Of a stretch of DNA of 64,000 nucleotides, positions 1,032 through 53,823 are shown piece by piece. Position 1 is the stretch's first letter. Each line of letters starts with the position of its first letter. Location of the stretch: the NCBI GenBank assembly GCA_028288305.1, contig JAQBOA010000053.1, positions 62,001 to 126,000 of the forward strand, given 5' to 3'. The notes beneath the pieces are model-generated. The model made no database searches. It had not been told where the DNA came from and saw only the letters and a list, made by a program, of their open reading frames with translations. The stretch is from Mucilaginibacter sp. (GTDB lineage: Bacteria; Bacteroidota; Bacteroidia; Sphingobacteriales; Sphingobacteriaceae). Position numbers and translations under genes: made by a program.

Positions 1032-1132
1032 CTTCACCTAAATCCTCTCCAAAGGAGAGGACTTTGAATAGCGAGTTGGCTGGTTTTATGTCTTTTAAAC
1101 TCCCTCTCCAAAGGAGAGGGCCGGGGTGAGGC
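1032..1132. repeat. Palindromic repeat element, same family as the insert in leuS
   Basis: Two perfect hairpins, CCTCTCC-AAA-GGAGAGG at 1044-1060 and CCCTCTCC-AAA-GGAGAGGG at 1102-1120, sit in the 314-base gap 850-1163. The outer ends read cttcacctaaat and gccggggtgaggc. The same ends and hairpins occur in reverse orientation inside leuS at 7828-7913. A partial match to the 11353-11402 inverted repeat (ggtgtccgtccgt) lies just upstream near 974. Nothing else was recognised in this gap. Confidence 0.8.
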
Positions 1133-6644: not shown

Positions 6645-9581
6645 CTACAACACAATATTCACTATCCTGCCTTTTACTACAATTACTTTTTTGGGTGCCT
6701 TGCCATCAAGATATTTCTGCACATCGGCATTAGCTAAAACAAAAGCTTCAATATCCTTTGACTCAAGGCTTAATGAAATATTGAGGTTAATTTTAGTTTT
6801 TCCGTTGATAGAAATGGGGTAGGCAAACTCATCCTCAATTAAGTAAGCAGCATTGAATTTTGGATAGGGTGTATAAGATAGTGTTCCGGCGGGGTTACCC
6901 AGCAATACCCACAACTCTTCACAAATATGCGGTGCATATGGCGAAAGAATGATAACCATATCCTGCAGAATAGCCCGCTTATTACATTTAAGATCGGTTA
7001 ACTCATTTACCGCTATCATAAAACTTGAAACTGAAGTATTGAAAGAAAAGCGGTCTACGTCTTCTTCTACCTTGCGGATAATTTTATGCAATGATTTGAG
7101 CTCAGCTTTGGTTGGTTCTTCATCTGATACATTAAAATTCCAGGCATCGTCATGAAATAAACGCCAAAACTTACGCAGAAATTTAAATACACCTTCAATA
7201 CCGTTAGTGTTCCATGGTTTGCTTTGCTCTAAAGGCCCTAAAAACATTTCGTACATACGAAGGGTATCGGCGCCGTAACGCTCTATGAGGTTGTCGGGGT
7301 TTACAACGTTGAACTTGGATTTTGACATCTTTTCGATCTCAACACCGCATACATATTTCCCGTTCTCAAGGATAAATTCTGCGTTTTTATATTCAGGGCG
7401 CCAAACCTTAAATTTGTTGATATCTAAAATATCATTTTCTACAATATTCACATCAACATGTATTGGTGATGTTTTATATTGTTTAATTAAGCCATGCGAA
7501 ATAAAAGTATTGGTGCCCTGGCCCGCATCATCAATTAATCTATACACAAAGTTCGACCGCCCCTGAATGTGCCCCTGGTTAATCAGCTTTTTAAACGGCT
7601 CTTCCTCAATCACCAGGTCCAAATCTTTCATAAACTTATTCCAGAAACGGCTGTATAGCAAATGCCCGGTTGCATGCTCACTGCCGCCTATATACAGGTC
7701 AACATTCTTCCAGTATTCAACGGCCTGTTTTGACGCAAACTCTTTATCATTATGCGCATCCATATACCGGTACCAGTACCAGCTTGAGCCGGCCCAGCCA
7801 GGCATGGTGCTGAGTTCATATTCATACGCCTCACCCCGGCCCTCTCCAAAGGAGAGGGAGGCAGCTTCACCTTCTTTTAAAGTCCTCTCCTTTGGAGAGG
7901 ATTTAGGTGAGGCTTGATATTTCCAATTAGAAGCTCTCGCCAATGGCGGCTCCCCACTTTCCGTAGGCAAATATTTATCAACCTCAGGCAATACTAATGG
8001 CAAATCTTTTTCTTCAATTAAGTGCGGTAAACCATCTTTAAAATAAACAGGAACCGGCTCTCCCCAATAACGCTGACGGCCAAATATGGCATCGCGCATG
8101 CGGTAGTTTACTTTTGCCTTGCCTGCGCCTAATTCTTCCAGTTTGGCAATAACAGTTGCAGCGGCCTCTTTATAGGTTAGTCCATTTATAAAGCCAGAAT
8201 TTATATAGCGGCCTTCCTTGGTAGGGTCAGCTTCGGTTTCAATGTTTTGTATGTCGATGATGGGTATTATCGGCAAATTATACTGCTTGGCAAATAGATA
8301 ATCGCGCTGATCACCGGAAGGTACAGCCATAACCGCGCCGGTGCCATATCCGGCAAGCACATAGTCAGCAATCCATATCTGTATTTTTTCGCCGTTAACC
8401 GGATTTATAGCATAGCTGCCGGTAAATGCGCCCGAAACGGTTTTGGCCTCAGCCATGCGCTCTAATTCCGATTTCTTTTTTGTTTGATTGATATATGCTT
8501 CAATAGTCGTCTTCTGTCCAGGCGTAGTTAAAGGTTCAACCAGCTCATGCTCAGGTGCTATAACCAAAAAGGTAGTACCGAAAATAGTATCGGCACGGGT
8601 GGTGAAAACCTCTATAGCCCCCTCTAAATCTCCCCCGGTAGGGGAGACTTTAGCAGCACTCTCTTCTGAAGCCCTCCCTACCGGGGAGGGTTTGGGTGGG
8701 GCTATAATCCGAAATTTAACAAGGGCTCCCACACTTTTCCCTATCCAGTTGCGTTGCATTTCTTTTAGCGGTTCGGGCCAGTCAATGGTGTCGAGGCCTT
8801 TTAGCAGACGGTCGGCATAGGCTGTTATGCGCATGCTCCACTGCATCATTTTCTTTTGCTCAACCGGGTAACCGCCACGTTCGCTAAAGCCATCCTTTAC
8901 CTCATCATTGGCCAGTACGGTGCCTAAAGCAGCGCACCAGTTTACTGTGCTTTCGCGCAGATAGGTAAGGCGGTATTTTAACAATTCGGCTTGCTTATCA
9001 TTATCGCTCAAGGCTCGCCATTCATCCGCTGTGAAGCTTAAAACTTCTTCATCACAAACAGCGTCAATGCCTGTCGATCCATATTTCTCAAAGTGTTCAA
9101 CCAGTTTACTGATAGGTTCAGCTTTATCTGCAGTTTTATTATACCAGGAGTTAAACAGCTGTATAAATATCCATTGCGTCCACTTATAATAATCCGGTGA
9201 ACTGGTACGCACTTCGCGACTCCAATCGAACGAAAAACCAATCTGATCAAGCTGACGGCGGTAGGTGGCAATATTAGCTTCGGTAGTTATAGCGGGGTGC
9301 TGCCCGGTTTGTATGGCATATTGTTCGGCAGGTAAACCAAAGCTGTCATAACCCATAGGGTGCAGCACATTAAAGCCTTTCAGCCTTTTATAACGTGCAA
9401 AAATATCAGAAGCAATATAGCCCAGTGGATGTCCAACATGTAGGCCCGCACCTGATGGATAAGGAAACATATCAAGCACATAATACTTGGGTTTGGTGGT
9501 TTTGTCTTCGGCTTTAAACGTTTGATGCTCTGCCCAAAACTTTTGCCATTTTTTTTCTATAGCTGCAAATTGATAGTCCAT
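6645..9581 (-). CDS. leuS: Leucine--tRNA ligase with two in-frame repeat insertions
   Basis: LeuRS charges tRNA-Leu and edits mischarged products. The class I signatures are HVGH at residues 48-51 and KMSKS at 751-755. The editing domain carries [10 protein letters not shown] and the C-terminal anticodon-binding region is complete. At 978 residues it is longer than usual. The excess matches two insertions built from palindromic DNA repeats. Residues 293-323 ([15 protein letters not shown]...) lie where the editing domain begins. Residues 557-585 ([15 protein letters not shown]...) lie just before the conserved [15 protein letters not shown]. Both keep the reading frame and contain no stop, so the enzyme is probably active with surface loops. 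As an essential single-copy gene it should be under strong selection. Confidence 0.97.
7828..7913. repeat. Palindromic element inserted in frame in leuS (copy 2)
   Basis: The DNA carries gcctcaccccgg at one end and atttaggtgaggc at the other. The two hairpins are CCCTCTCC-AAA-GGAGAGGG and CCTCTCC-TTT-GGAGAGG. This is the reverse complement of the intergenic element at 1032-1132, with a different middle. It encodes residues 557-585 of LeuRS. Confidence 0.9.
8615..8704. repeat. Palindromic element inserted in frame in leuS (copy 1)
   Basis: This 90-base element has ends TAGCCCC and GGGGCTA (the flanking bases extend the match to TATAGCCCC/GGGGCTATA). Its hairpins are CTCCCCCGGTAGGGGAG and CCCTCCCTACCGGGGAGGG. 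It is a sister type of the 7828-7913 element with the same architecture. It encodes LeuRS residues 293-323; a length of 90 bases keeps the frame. Confidence 0.9.
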
Positions 9582-11419: not shown

Positions 11420-11567
11420 TGCCCCTGTAAGGGGCTAACCGTTTGTAGAACTTAATTCAAATCATCCTTTTTGCCCCGTCAGGGGTTACCAAATTCGCTA
11501 AGGGTAGCCCCTAACGGGGCAAATTTGTTTTTTTTATTTTCTACAAACGGGTAACCCCTACGGGGCA
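11420..11567. mobile_element. 148-bp MITE-like element with nested inverted repeats, copy 1
   Basis: The outer ends (TGCCCCTGTAAGGGG...GTTTGTAGAA and TTCTACAAAC...CCCCTACGGGGCA) are inverted repeats. In the middle lies a second inverted repeat (TTGCCCCGTCAGGGGTTACC against a diverged GGTAGCCCCTAACGGGGCAA). A second copy of the same length lies inverted at 36432-36579. No coding capacity is visible, so it would be moved in trans. Confidence 0.75.
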
Positions 11568-21924: not shown

Positions 21925-21971
21925 TATTTTATTATGGATTTTTAGTTTTGTATTGGCTATTATTTCCGCCT

Positions 21972-21993
21972 TTGTTGGTGTTATCACCAACAA
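21972..21993. repeat. REP palindrome (TTGTTGGTG...CACCAACAA), next to RAYT 3' end
   Basis: Nine-base arms TTGTTGGTG and CACCAACAA surround the core TTAT. It is ten bases from the stop codon of the RAYT gene. The flanks are gcctt and accgccatg, shared with the 23625 copy. Confidence 0.9.
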
Positions 21994-22002
21994 ACCGCCA
22001 TG

Positions 22003-22524
22003 CTAGTACGACGTAAGTATTCCAAACTTATCATATCCCGTTTCATAGAATTTTGCTGATGAATATTTATAATCTTCCGGAAACTCAGCCAAGTGCCATT
22101 TTTCCTGTAGCGGATTGTGATGAATATATTCCAGTTTTTGCATAAACACATCCGGACTCCATAAATCAATGCTTAAAGCGTTTCTTTCCCAAAATTGATA
22201 TTCCCTGTCTTTGGCATTTACCCTGTATTGCTCAAGCTTTAACTTATCCGTTTCCAAAAGCTTGAATTTCATTTGCTGTGCGGTAAATCTCAGGAAACGT
22301 AATTGTATTTTATCTTGTTTAAAACCATCCTGTATCTGCCATATCAAATGGATATGATTAGGCATAATTACAAACGCATAAACCACCACACTTTTTTCAT
22401 TTGTTAAAAATTGCAGACTCTTTATAATGATGTCCTTAAAATCATCATTTTTTAAGAGGTGTTTCCATTCCAATATTGTTGCAGTGAAAAATTGAGGGTG
22501 GAGGTCAAAATTTATATCGGCCAT
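22003..22524 (-). CDS. REP-associated tyrosine transposase (RAYT, Y1_Tnp/IS200-like)
   Basis: The 173-residue protein carries the HUH nuclease motif as His57-x-His59 in MPNHIHLIWQ, and the catalytic tyrosine as Tyr133 in EYIHHNP. This layout is that of RAYT proteins, single-copy relatives of the IS200/IS605 transposases that nick and may spread REP palindromes. The context supports it: TTGTTGGTG palindromes lie within about 30 bases of each end of the gene, with five more between 22.6 and 23.8 kb and three at 46.4-46.6 kb. The gene looks intact. The palindrome as its substrate is an inference. Confidence 0.93.
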   Translation of the reverse strand: MADINFDLHPQFFTATILEWKHLLKNDDFKDIIIKSLQFLTNEKSVVVYAFVIMPNHIHLIWQIQDGFKQDKIQLRFLRFTAQQMKFKLLETDKLKLEQYRVNAKDREYQFWERNALSIDLWSPDVFMQKLEYIHHNPLQEKWHLAEFPEDYKYSSAKFYETGYDKFGILTSY

Positions 22525-22550
22525 TAGGCTAAGTTATAAAATATTGGTAA

Positions 22551-22805
22551 TTGTTGGTGTTAACACCACAAAACCACAGCCTTCTTAGCGATATACCCAA
22601 ATAGCAATCGGCATTGTACTAACTTACAAGATAGGGATACTTGTTGGTGATAACACCAACAAGGGCGGAAAATCGTGAAAACCACAATCTTCTTGGCAAT
22701 AGACCCAAATAGCAATCGGCATTGTACTAACTTACAAGACAGGGGTACTTGTTGGTGATAACACCAACAATGGCGGAAAAATAATATTTGTTAATCACCA
22801 ACAAG
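22551..22805. repeat. REP cluster upstream of RAYT: tandem ~107-bp units
   Basis: Palindromes lie at 22551-22569 (imperfect), 22641-22662 and 22749-22770; a half copy follows at about 22787. The DNA from about 22572 to 22790 is two direct units of about 107 bases (ccacagccttcttagc..., ccacaatcttcttggc...). Each contains atagcaatcggcattgtac, acttacaaga, then the palindrome, then gggcgga or tggcgga. Confidence 0.9.
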
Positions 22806-22870
22806 GACAAAAAATTTAGCTAAAAGTTGTTTTTAACATTAATAATTTGTTAACTTTATGTAAACCAAAA

Positions 22871-23599
22871 GTGAACAAATTGTTAATTACCGGGTTATTG
22901 ATTTTCAATTCTCTGAATTGTTTTTCAACCTGTATTGCCATTTATGTTGCTGAAAACGGACACATATATGTTGCAGCGGATAGCCGGAGGACTTTTTTCT
23001 TCGATGATGCCAATGGACAGAAATTTGAAACGGTTTGTAAAATTCATAACGTAGGGTCTAACTACTTCGCCGTTTCAGGCATTGACGACAGTGGCTTGTC
23101 GAAGGCAGCTACCAAAGCGCTGCAACAAAACGCCAATATCTATATTGCCGTTAAATCCTTCGCGCATGCTATGGAAAAACGGTATAAACAACTGATGGAT
23201 GACACCAGATTATTTTATCCCAATAAGTTCCCTAAATTTTTAAAAGACGGTCTGGCAAGCGTAAGCTTCTTTGGATATTATTGCGGGATGCCCAATGTAT
23301 ATAACATTGAATTTCTTTGCAGTTTGGATAAAAACGGGGAAGTTGTAATAAAGTACAGGATAAACAGGATTTTTGTTATAAATGTAATCGGAATTTCCAG
23401 GGATATTGCGAACGCTCAACCTGGTGATATTCCTCCAGTATCTACCATAGACCAGAACCCTGAATTATATGTGGAAGCATTGGTTAAGATAGAAGCAAAA
23501 ATGCACCCCCTTTCCGTAAGCGAACCAATAGACTTACTGGAACTGGGGCCAGACGGTGCAAACTGGATCAGGAAAAACGAAAACGTTGTTTCTTATTAA
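22871..23599 (+). CDS. Predicted exported Ntn-hydrolase-like (proteasome beta-like) protein
   Basis: The start is taken as GTG 22871 (MNKLLITGLLIFNSLNCFS), which gives a plain signal peptide. A TTG at 22847 is an alternative. After predicted cleavage the mature protein would begin TCIAIYVAENGHIYVAADSRRT. This has the look of the N-terminal strand of proteasome-type Ntn hydrolases, with a free N-terminal Thr or Cys and the AADSR motif. KIHNVGSNYFAVSGI matches the next hairpin in the fold. The rest is about 200 residues. It is probably a periplasmic amidohydrolase or peptidase with unknown substrate. It lies between two REP clusters, divergent from the RAYT gene. The family call rests on motifs only. 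Confidence 0.6.
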   Translation: MNKLLITGLLIFNSLNCFSTCIAIYVAENGHIYVAADSRRTFFFDDANGQKFETVCKIHNVGSNYFAVSGIDDSGLSKAATKALQQNANIYIAVKSFAHAMEKRYKQLMDDTRLFYPNKFPKFLKDGLASVSFFGYYCGMPNVYNIEFLCSLDKNGEVVIKYRINRIFVINVIGISRDIANAQPGDIPPVSTIDQNPELYVEALVKIEAKMHPLSVSEPIDLLELGPDGANWIRKNENVVSY

Positions 23600-23624
23600 T
23601 CGATAAGCGTATTTGTTTTTGCCT

Positions 23625-23811
23625 TTGTTGGTGTTATCACCAACAAACCGCCATGCTAAAATAGCAATTGGCATTGTACCAACTTATAAGACAGGGGTAC
23701 TTGTTGGTGAAAACACCAACAAGGGCGGAGAACCGCCATGTTAAAATAGCAATCGGCATTGTACCAACCTATAAGACAGGGGTACTTGTTGGTGAAAACA
23801 CCAACAAGGGC
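23625..23811. repeat. REP cluster downstream of the Ntn-hydrolase-like gene
   Basis: Palindromes lie at 23625-23646 (core TTAT), 23701-23722 and 23786-23807 (core AAAA). The spacer unit (ccgccatg, taaaatagcaatyggcattgtaccaac, agacaggggtac) is the same as in the 22.6 kb cluster. The arms stay perfect while the core varies. Confidence 0.9.
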
Positions 23812-23837
23812 GGAAAAACAACCAATGACTAATGACG

Positions 23838-36431: not shown

Positions 36432-36579
36432 TACCCGTATGGATTACCCATTTGTAGAAAAATAAGAAAGAAAAAATTGCCCCGTCAGGGGTTACCCATT
36501 TGCTAGAGGTAGCCCCTGACGAGGCAAAAAAGATGATTTGAATTAAATTCTACAAACGGGTAGTACCCCTATAGGGACA
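36432..36579. mobile_element. 148-bp MITE-like element, copy 2 (inverted relative to 11420)
   Basis: The ends are accc...tttgtagaaaa and ttctacaaacgggt...gtaccccta. The central inverted repeat is ttgccccgtcaggggttacc against ggtagcccctgacgaggcaa. It matches copy 1 over its length in reverse orientation, including aaatcatc...ttttgcc. Confidence 0.75.
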
Positions 36580-46345: not shown

Positions 46346-46355
46346 GGGGATACTT

Positions 46356-46640
46356 CTGCCCTTGTTGGTGTTGTCACCAACAAGTACCGGTATATTTATA
46401 TATTTTAGAATAGTGCCGTTTTTATGTTCGGTGCTCCGTGCGTAACCAAGTTGTAGTTACAGGTTTATTCTCTGCCCTTGTTGGTGTTGTCACCAACAAG
46501 TACCGGTATGTTTATACTATTTAGAATAGTACCGTTTTTATGTTCGGTGCTCCGTGCGTAACCAAGTTGTAATTACAGGTTTATTCTCTAATTCAAAGAT
46601 CAACCTGATTTGTTGGTGATAACACCAACAAAGGCTAAAG
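46356..46640. repeat. Distant REP cluster with the RAYT-locus palindrome on a different body
   Basis: Palindromes lie at 46362-46383 and 46478-46499 (core TTGT) and 46610-46631 (core ATAA). The first two are parts of direct 116-base units (ctgccc + palindrome + gtaccggtat..., gttcggtgctccgtgcgtaaccaagttgta). That body is unrelated to the 22-24 kb units; only the palindrome is shared. Confidence 0.9.
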
Positions 46641-46754: not shown

Positions 46755-46961
46755 AGAATCTCCAATTGCGTTATTTAACCAAAATATGGCATTGTTCTGC
46801 GCAGGGGTGTCTGTGACAGATAATTGTTAGCGTGGATGCTGACAATTATTGAAAGTCAAGCGAAACACGCTTGACTTGGCGGGGAATCTCCAATTGCGTT
46901 ATTTAACCAAAATACGGCATTGTTCTGCGCAGGGTCGTCTGCGACAGACCCTGCGGGGACG
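46755..46961. repeat. Direct ~52-bp repeat ending in a gcagggtc hairpin
   Basis: The sequence gaatctccaattgcgttatt...cattgttctgcgcaggg occurs at 46757-46807 and 46886-46934. The second ends in a hairpin, GCAGGGTC-gtctgcgacaga-ccctgc, which is the left end of the 49084/52459 elements in reverse orientation. The stretch 46640-46755 has no recognised feature. Confidence 0.75.
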
Positions 46962-47127
46962 GAAAATTCTAAAGGAGAAATAACAAAAGAGCGCTGTCAT
47001 ACTGAGGCCCTCGAAGTACGTGCGGGTGGCTGGCGGATCTGCAATGATTGTATAATCAAGGCGTTAATGCACGACGGCAAGGCCTTTGCGCGCATGGCTC
47101 GAGGGGCCTGCCATGACATCCTTTTTT
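46962..47127. repeat. 166-bp dispersed element (ctcgaagtacgtgc), copy B
   Basis: It starts gaaaattctaaaggagaaataacaaaagag and ends gccatgacatccttttttgc, with ctcgaagtacgtgc...gcgcatggctcgag as an inner inverted pair. Reverse complement copy at 16673-16846, diverged copy at 52752-52903. The open frame across it is not a gene. Confidence 0.8.
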
Positions 47128-49083: not shown

Positions 49084-49233
49084 CTTTTTGTCCTCGCAGG
49101 GTCTGTCGCAGACGACCCTGCGCAGAACCAATTAATAAGATGAATTTTCATTTTCACCAAGCAAGACATATTATTTCTCAAAGGAGCTTCCCAGCGCAGG
49201 GTCCTTTTCAAGAAACTCTGCGGGAACAAAAAG
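49084..49233. mobile_element. 150-bp MITE-like element with terminal hairpins, copy 1
   Basis: The left end is CTTTTTGTCC-TCGCAGGGTC, with hairpin GCAGGGTC-TGTCGCAGAC-GACCCTGC. The right end is a hairpin ending CTGCGGGAACAAAAAG. The two ends are inverted copies of each other. A second, direct copy is at 52459-52614. It ends eleven bases from the DUF5131 stop codon. Confidence 0.8.
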
Positions 49234-52418: not shown

Positions 52419-52458
52419 TTGCACCTGGCGGCGCAATCAAAACAATATAATGCATTAA

Positions 52459-52614
52459 CTTTTTGTCCCAGCAGGGTCTGTCGCAGACGACCCTTCGCAG
52501 AACCATCTCGTTAATAAGATAATTTTCATTTTCACCAGGCAAAAGCATATTATGTTTCAAAAGGAGCATCCTGCGCAGGGTCCTTTTTCAAGAGACCCTG
52601 CGGGAACAAAAAAG
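52459..52614. mobile_element. MITE-like element with terminal hairpins, copy 2 (direct repeat of 49084)
   Basis: It shares with copy 1 the ends CTTTTTGTCC...GCAGGGTCTGTCGCAGACGA and ...GCGGGAACAAAAA. It also shares the middle ttaataaga, attttcattttcacca and aaggagcatcc. Both copies have the same orientation and bracket the tcmP locus. Confidence 0.8.
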
Positions 52615-53394: not shown

Positions 53395-53470
53395 CACCCC
53401 TCCCATGGGAGGGAGTTTTTAAGACAATTTCTGTCGCAGACGACCCTGCGCAGAACCATGTCGTTAATAA
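53395..53470. repeat. Composite: CCTCCCATGGGAGG palindrome plus gcagacgaccctgc end
   Basis: The palindrome at about 53399-53412 is of the GC-rich family seen in the leuS elements. It runs into ctgtcgcagacgaccctgcgcagaacc, the left end of the 150-bp element. One repeat appears inserted in, or recombined with, another. Confidence 0.6.
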
Positions 53471-53823
53471 GATAAATTCTCAATCTTATCAGTCAACTGT
53501 AAACTAACTACAGGATTATTCACCAAAAGTGTCAACTTTTTTCAGGGATAGACAACACACCAGCCGTTCACCAATTGTTCATTTTGAACGCAAATGAACG
53601 CTTACAGGGATAATTAATAACAAAACTTGATTTTTTACAAACTAAAACCTACATATTTCTGCATATTCCTGCATATTTACACCCACATTATGCGTTTTAT
53701 TCCCACTGCTGGTATCTTTATTGCATATAATATAATTAATTGATTATCAAACATTTGTGACTAAGCAAAAAGATAAAAAATTACATCAGTCTGATTATCA
53801 GCGACTAACAAATTTTCATGAGT

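Follow-up and report, generated by a model that had tools for sequence, protein, structure and literature searches.

Within the window, as we call the whole 64,000-nucleotide stretch of Mucilaginibacter sp. DNA analysed here, the leuS gene for leucyl-tRNA synthetase (LeuRS) carries two palindromic elements in its coding sequence, and a further copy of one of them is found in a spacer (Table 1). The two types, designated A (86 bp) and B (92 bp), share the same build, consisting of two inverted arms with a small GC-rich hairpin of its own within each arm. The reading frame is open throughout both LeuRS elements, with no stops. The first-pass annotation of this DNA had assigned LeuRS residues 293-323 and 557-585 to palindromes that keep the frame, and both the coordinates of the elements and the existence of a single frame of 978 aa agree with that assignment.

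Table 1. Location of leuS, of the palindromic elements and of their hairpins in the window
Feature	Position	Strand	Basis
leuS, leucyl-tRNA synthetase, 978 aa, host of both elements	6645..9581	-	Single open frame, Pfam match
Type A palindromic element, LeuRS site 2, residues 557-585, in frame, ends GCCTCACC/GGTGAGGC	7828..7913	-	
Hairpin, one type A arm, CCTCTCCAAAGGAGAGG	7841..7857	+	Hairpin pattern scan
Hairpin, other type A arm, CCTCTCCTTTGGAGAGG	7884..7900	+	Hairpin pattern scan
Type B palindromic element, LeuRS site 1, residues 293-323, in frame, ends ATAGCCCC/GGGGCTAT	8614..8705	-	
Hairpin, one type B arm, CTCCCCCGGTAGGGGAG	8630..8646	+	Read from sequence
Hairpin, other type B arm, CCCTCCCTACCGGGGAGGG	8672..8690	+	Read from sequence
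Spacer copy of type A element, orientation opposite to 7828-7913	1032..1132	+	

A scan of the window with the hairpin pattern CCTCTCCNNNGGAGAGG, allowing up to two mismatches, resulted in four matches, in comparison with 0.01 expected in shuffled sequences. Two of these matches lie in the LeuRS type A element and the other two in the spacer element, which is a type A copy in reverse orientation, as proposed earlier. Folding as single-stranded DNA gave z values, relative to shuffled sequences, of -6.3 for type A, -3.8 for type B, and -2.3 for the spacer element. In an AlphaFold model of the window LeuRS (mean pLDDT 80, 36 sequences), pLDDT values fell below 50 at residues 40-50, 297-319, and 561-582, the last two segments being the inserts. 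Both inserts were modelled without secondary structure, with strands around them at residues 282-293 and 322-327 (site 1) and at residues 554-556 and 585-588 (site 2). In this predicted structure the inserts are low-confidence loops, each located between two strands, in line with the loop positions given by the first-pass annotation.

Other repeats were also observed in the window. Repeats on TTGTTGGTGTTATCACCAACAA-like palindromes are present in several copies at 21960-23831 and 46350-46586, repeats around GCGCAGGGTCGTCTGCGACAGACCCTGCG occur in both orientations at 46914-46968, 49085-49128, 52457-52525, and 53430-53478, and a 56-base inverted pair (91%) is formed by segments 11435-11490 and 36508-36563, 25 kb apart.

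Dispersed copies and the two LeuRS sites in the genus

Copies of both types are dispersed in the genome to which the window belongs (4.9 Mb, 109 contigs, 90.7% complete). At least 61 matches were obtained for type A (best 40 of 92 candidates scored) and at least 40 for type B (best 40 of 42 candidates scored); these figures are matches and not element counts, with some matches missed, and the number of places is lower because palindromes match on both strands. Among 59 places fetched from this genome, some of which are arms of one element, nine, in six genes including leuS, are flanked on either side by an open frame of 90 codons or more, and the remaining 50 are not flanked in this way. In addition to LeuRS, the in-frame hosts are IcmF (three elements), AlaRS, a DUF255 protein, an AMP-binding protein, and one protein without a Pfam hit, five of the six host genes being supported by Pfam. 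Further coding insertions, which the first-pass annotation had suggested looking for, are present in the genome. In 24 type A elements, short direct repeats (2-5 bases) at the element ends were no more frequent than expected by chance, and no target-site duplication was detected in this set.

The occupancy of the LeuRS sites was studied in 61 genomes of the genus, with a readable LeuRS locus in 59 of them, including the genome of the window, and with site classes assigned by our own length, motif, and hairpin rules. Site 1, readable in 57 genomes, is empty in 27, has two arms in 12, one arm in four, other sequence in 14, and DUF559, a domain described below, in none. Site 2, readable in 56, is empty in 35 and holds DUF559 in five, two arms in five, one arm in seven, and other sequence in four. 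Empty sites, proposed earlier as a check on insertion, are thus found at both positions in many relatives. Conservation of the inserted residues in LeuRS proteins lacking the palindromes had been named as the finding that would speak against the first-pass reading; many relatives lack these residues at both sites, and the reading is therefore not refuted on this ground. Throughout the genus, both LeuRS sites behave as hot spots, and their content varies between close relatives. On a tree of 55 LeuRS genes from which the insert columns had been removed, at least 13 changes between filled and unfilled states were required at site 1 and at least 15 at site 2, and the states of site 2 required 18 changes vs a shuffled mean of 18.3, a clustering no greater than that of shuffled states.

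Named LeuRS records were also considered. The best four among the matches listed to the LeuRS of a congener (G033) were from Mucilaginibacter, with 84-89% identity over the best segment. On inspection by eye, site 1 of M. gilvus LeuRS carries type A peptides and its site 2 the remnant of a single arm, and in the LeuRS of M. polytrichastri palindrome peptides are seen at both sites.

Site 1 was also found to hold peptides resembling other repeats, such as RHPELVSGSQEMLKQVQHD, SQESRVRSQE, and ISDFQFRNSDKSEIENPKSEI (L227, L250, G009, G064, G014, and G078), and a site 1 stretch longer than 30 aa was recorded by a pattern of our own in 23 of 80 named LeuRS. Site 1 looks like a general landing loop. 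A different insert is present near site 2 in the LeuRS of genome G080 (L317), with 137 aa between markers, a few of which belong to LeuRS; it gave no extra Pfam hit and appeared nuclease-like by eye.

DUF559 domains between palindromic arms

In five genomes of the genus (G008, G023, G033, G061, and G068), LeuRS site 2 contains an insert of 159-193 aa in one frame, in which a DUF559 domain (a predicted Vsr-like nuclease) is preceded by a left arm and followed by a right arm, both of type B. The type B arms of the window were identical to those of G008, G023, and G033, the three of the five carriers compared, at 33-35 of 35-36 bases, and the same arms are therefore common to forms with and without the nuclease domain. 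Two carriers have an empty sister at site 2 (G064 for G061 and G077 for G008). No second strong LeuRS was found in the five carriers among the matches listed, one list extending to approximately E 1e-8. Misassembly is an unlikely source of DUF559 in LeuRS, because the arrangement recurs in five genomes of the genus, in another genus of the family (L329, site 2), and in other families.

A search with the DUF559 core matched 50 of the 61 genomes of the genus, and by our count at least 22 matches, in 19 genomes, fall in open frames of at least 900 aa. The hosts, read from the loci and with one example of each confirmed with Pfam or NCBIfam, are LeuRS, an IcmF-like fused mutase (MeaB and mutase domains), TruB, the Lhr helicase, and the N-terminus of HisF; HisH was identified as a host by reading only. 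In the 20 gene-embedded loci of LeuRS (five), TruB (four), IcmF (ten), and Lhr (one), a set that excludes HisF/HisH, an A or B hairpin was found within 250 nt of the domain in all cases, and on both sides in 16. The IcmF copies carry type A hairpins (one of them also B), the LeuRS and TruB copies type B, and the single Lhr copy A upstream and B downstream; the link of A arms to DUF559 in IcmF is based on hairpin patterns and peptide reading and not on a base-by-base count. Each arm type of the window LeuRS flanks DUF559 somewhere in the genus, but not at the LeuRS site where the window carries it: site 2 of the window is of type A and site 1 of type B, whereas the DUF559 of its congeners at site 2 has B arms. 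DUF559 was absent from site 1 in all 57 readable genomes of the genus, and its motif was absent from the 80 named LeuRS records.

More widely, DUF559 was present in 102 of 198 genomes of the class. Among the best 30 loci, a sample biased towards best matches, 19 are in frames of at least 600 aa. The hosts, identified with Pfam at nine loci and by sequence reading at the others, include LeuRS at site 1 (L188, L199, L202, L204, L214, L216, and G049) and at site 2 (L187, L196, and G050), and also MetH (two places), IleRS, Acs, RecJ, HsdR, and a PurL-like protein. In RecJ, Pfam places DUF559 inside the DHH domain, and in Acs it separates two AMP-binding pieces. DUF559 occupies these same two LeuRS positions in several families. 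DUF559 was also read in restriction-enzyme-like proteins (L330 and L331), with SGEVSEGRRGQ-like peptides adjoining it.

Conservation of the nuclease core and its flanking arms

The consensus of 37 embedded cores, a set that excludes L190, L197, and the HisF/HisH copies, was R..T.aE..lW..lr...RRQh.i...I.DFv.l...L..E.DG..H...D..RT..L...RF.N, where spacing is shortened, capitals are kept in at least 36 of the 37 cores, and small letters in at least 85%. At least 36 cores thus retain the residues E, D, E.DG, and H at these positions. The DUF559 profile (PF04480) was matched above its cut-off in embedded cores, PDB entry 3hrl, a DUF559 protein, matched the core at E 3.7e-16, and the DUF559 protein family PRK09767 of NCBIfam matched it at 5e-18, below the score cut-off of that family. 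Embedded DUF559 is predicted to be a nuclease of the Vsr/PD-(D/E)XK type. No in-frame ATG was found in the 45 codons preceding the first conserved Glu in 25 of 38 embedded cores (HisF/HisH copies excluded), vs 3 of 16 free cores. This count concerns ATG, and GTG or TTG may also serve as starts; many embedded cores may be made only within the host protein.

Comparison of cores G033 and G023 gave a dN of 0.025 and a dS of 0.717, and most other pairs were saturated. Synonymous differences between LeuRS cores are similar to those of LeuRS itself, mostly saturated, and amino acid differences are higher in the core. Recent spread is therefore not seen in these data, and recent horizontal homing into leuS is unsupported; a long-established presence, with repeated losses from LeuRS site 2, is the better fit. 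In a tree of 64 cores, in which L154 and L155 were not included, 40 embedded cores grouped together with modest support (SH-aLRT 82), with the cores of HsdR (L190) and HisF/HisH outside. In a second tree of 49 rows, which excludes HisF/HisH, L190, L197, L201, and most free-standing DUF559, 41 embedded cores grouped at 96, with the restriction-enzyme-like hosts L330 and L331 outside. The cores of the genus from LeuRS site 2, TruB, and IcmF form one clade (97 in the 64-core tree). Supported groups mix cores of different hosts, namely RecJ, Acs, and LeuRS site 1 in one case and LeuRS site 2 and Acs in another, indicating that the element has changed host genes.

The presence of arms was quantified at 64 DUF559 loci, which are best matches and not a random draw. 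With thresholds of our own (within 160 nt, either an inverted repeat score of at least 20 or a hairpin on each side), arms were detected at 47 of the 64 loci, vs none of 600 random positions of the window and 3 of 296 positions displaced within those loci; the other 17 loci fell below these thresholds. When a stricter alignment score was used, 51 of the 64 loci exceeded the maximum of 320 composition shuffles, and only 14 passed the 99% level when mispaired flanks served as the null, which is a poor control because the loci share family arms.

The arm located beside the DUF559 gene of contig 99 in the genome of the window differs from A and B and gave 12 matches in that genome. Six of these matches bracket, as inverted pairs, three free-standing DUF559 loci: that of contig 99, with an intact open frame, C107:42330, whose truncated domain covers 69 of 109 positions, and C107:44254, with two stops. 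The other six, at five loci, are on contigs without DUF559; by script, four of these loci have one arm and the fifth (L341) has two arms that point the same way, and a worn second arm was seen by eye in L339 and L340. The free-standing DUF559 loci of this genome have the layout of a REPIN with its partner gene, with DUF559 replacing RAYT. Arms of types A and B were found at none of the four DUF559 loci of this genome, so the cognate nuclease was not seen in the 90.7% complete assembly; A or B hairpins were likewise found at none of its seven Y1_Tnp loci. One of the Y1_Tnp genes (L090, contig 48) lies beside GTTGGCT..AGCCAAC hairpins, unrelated to A and B, as in an ordinary RAYT/REP pair.

Origin of the LeuRS inserts and comparison with known systems

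We consider it likely that the LeuRS inserts of the window belong to a family of DUF559 nuclease elements bounded by palindromes, of which they would be non-autonomous copies with arms only. In the full form, two arms would enclose a DUF559 nuclease of the Vsr/PD-(D/E)XK type. This nuclease would recognise or cut the arms or the target, leading to the spread of full and arms-only copies, and copies in genes would survive only if they lie in frame in a tolerant loop. No splicing domain was found, from which we infer that the protein retains the insert peptide. The variety of type B forms seen at LeuRS site 2 within the genus suggests as the likely order a full form that would lose its core and pass through two arms and one arm to an empty site. 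DUF559 would thus drive the spread, with arms-only forms resulting from core loss, and mobility and cleavage would both be activities of the element. With somewhat less assurance, we lean on balance towards a broader view, in which Bacteroidota hold an undescribed mobile element whose arm-bounded DUF559 would lie in frame in essential enzymes, be translated unspliced, and often be startless, and whose arms would also spread alone in a REPIN-like manner, littering spacers and proteins, including leuS.

Site-specific homing, in which embedded DUF559 would cut the empty host allele, as endonucleases of inteins and introns do, and repair would copy the element into it without splicing, arms-only copies being products of decay, appears unlikely. 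Cores of the genus do group largely by host site (TruB, LeuRS site 2, Lhr, and most of IcmF), the scatter of site 2 states on the LeuRS tree (18 changes vs 18.3) would be expected from homing, and so would the use of the same two LeuRS sites in several families. However, the supported groups that mix cores of different host genes require moves to new sites, the mostly saturated synonymous differences common to core and LeuRS show no recent spread, and arms-only copies are numerous, with 50 of the 59 fetched places without a 90-codon open frame on both sides. We regard as less probable still that the inserts are ordinary REP/REPIN- or Rickettsia-like palindromes moved by an HUH protein of the RAYT type, DUF559 being a passenger that tolerates the same loops: the hairpin pairs in REPIN layout, the seven Y1_Tnp matches in the genome, and the known occurrence of REPs inside genes (PMC3733652) are in favor of this explanation, but none of the seven Y1_Tnp loci has A or B hairpins, the hairpins of L090 being its own, and DUF559 is repeatedly found between arms that are unlike each other. 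A function of the inserts within LeuRS, favored by selection in this lineage, is very improbable; despite the retention of the frame and the frequent use of both sites, site 1 is empty in 27 of 57 and site 2 in 35 of 56 readable genomes, other sequence fills them in 14 and four genomes, respectively, and the inserts are disordered in the LeuRS model.

Placing DUF559 between arms as part of the element bears on a wider matter, since the spread of small palindromic repeats that carry no gene is an open question outside the cases attributed to RAYT. A second nuclease family, unrelated to RAYT, is here tied to such repeats by its position between arms, and many core enzymes of Bacteroidota (aminoacyl-tRNA synthetases, methionine synthase, and others) seem to hold the nuclease domain or its scars in their folds. 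These observations point to a little-known mobile element residing inside working proteins, which is of relevance to annotation and to how insertions arise in proteins.

Rickettsia palindromic elements, of about 150 bp, lie in frame inside protein genes (PMC10969869), and the first-pass annotation had likened the LeuRS inserts to them. This reading stands in that dispersed palindromes are found in frame in unrelated protein genes, including the loops of a tRNA synthetase, a likeness of layout and not of compared sequence. It is nevertheless incomplete, since in congeners the same arms surround in-frame DUF559 (B in LeuRS site 2 and TruB, A in IcmF), and it overlooked both the two LeuRS sites as genus-wide hot spots differing between close relatives and the in-frame copies in other core enzymes of the same genome, such as AlaRS and IcmF (three). 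The A and B elements also differ from those of Rickettsia in belonging to another phylum, in being somewhat shorter, and in having arms that bracket a nuclease domain.

With REPIN/RAYT systems, or REPtrons, the elements share dispersed inverted hairpin pairs and a single-domain nuclease gene bracketed by hairpins, and REPs within genes are also known (PMC3733652). The nuclease, in contrast, is here a Vsr-like DUF559 of the PD-(D/E)XK type instead of an HUH RAYT, it is often in frame within hosts, and a RAYT (Y1_Tnp) gene bracketed by A or B hairpins was found at none of seven loci in the genome. The elements are also distinguished from MITEs with target-site duplication, given that no duplication was found in the 24 type A elements. 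Inteins with homing endonucleases similarly place an endonuclease in frame in conserved proteins (PMC3943268), and an endonuclease-like domain within a conserved protein is the likeness between both. The ends of the elements are, unlike those of inteins, encoded by palindromes, and a scan of 20 proteins, 13 of them with DUF559, gave no Pfam hit to the intein/Hint family at E 0.001. Homing endonucleases of the EDxHD group, such as I-Bth0305I, are related to Vsr. These enzymes are phage-derived and mobile, with long DNA-binding regions, and palindromic arms are absent from the passages of PMC3943268 that describe them. The Caulobacter VsrA protein contains DUF559, as a separate gene in the account given in PMC12907096, whereas DUF559 is here found within host proteins. 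In open-licence papers we found no link of DUF559 to palindromes or to in-frame insertion, which is weak evidence of absence.

Altogether, the element has the layout of REPIN/RAYT systems and the place in proteins of an unspliced intein, but departs from both in a defining trait. Taken by themselves, the short inserts would belong to a kind already known, and the nuclease-bearing forms would be what is new.
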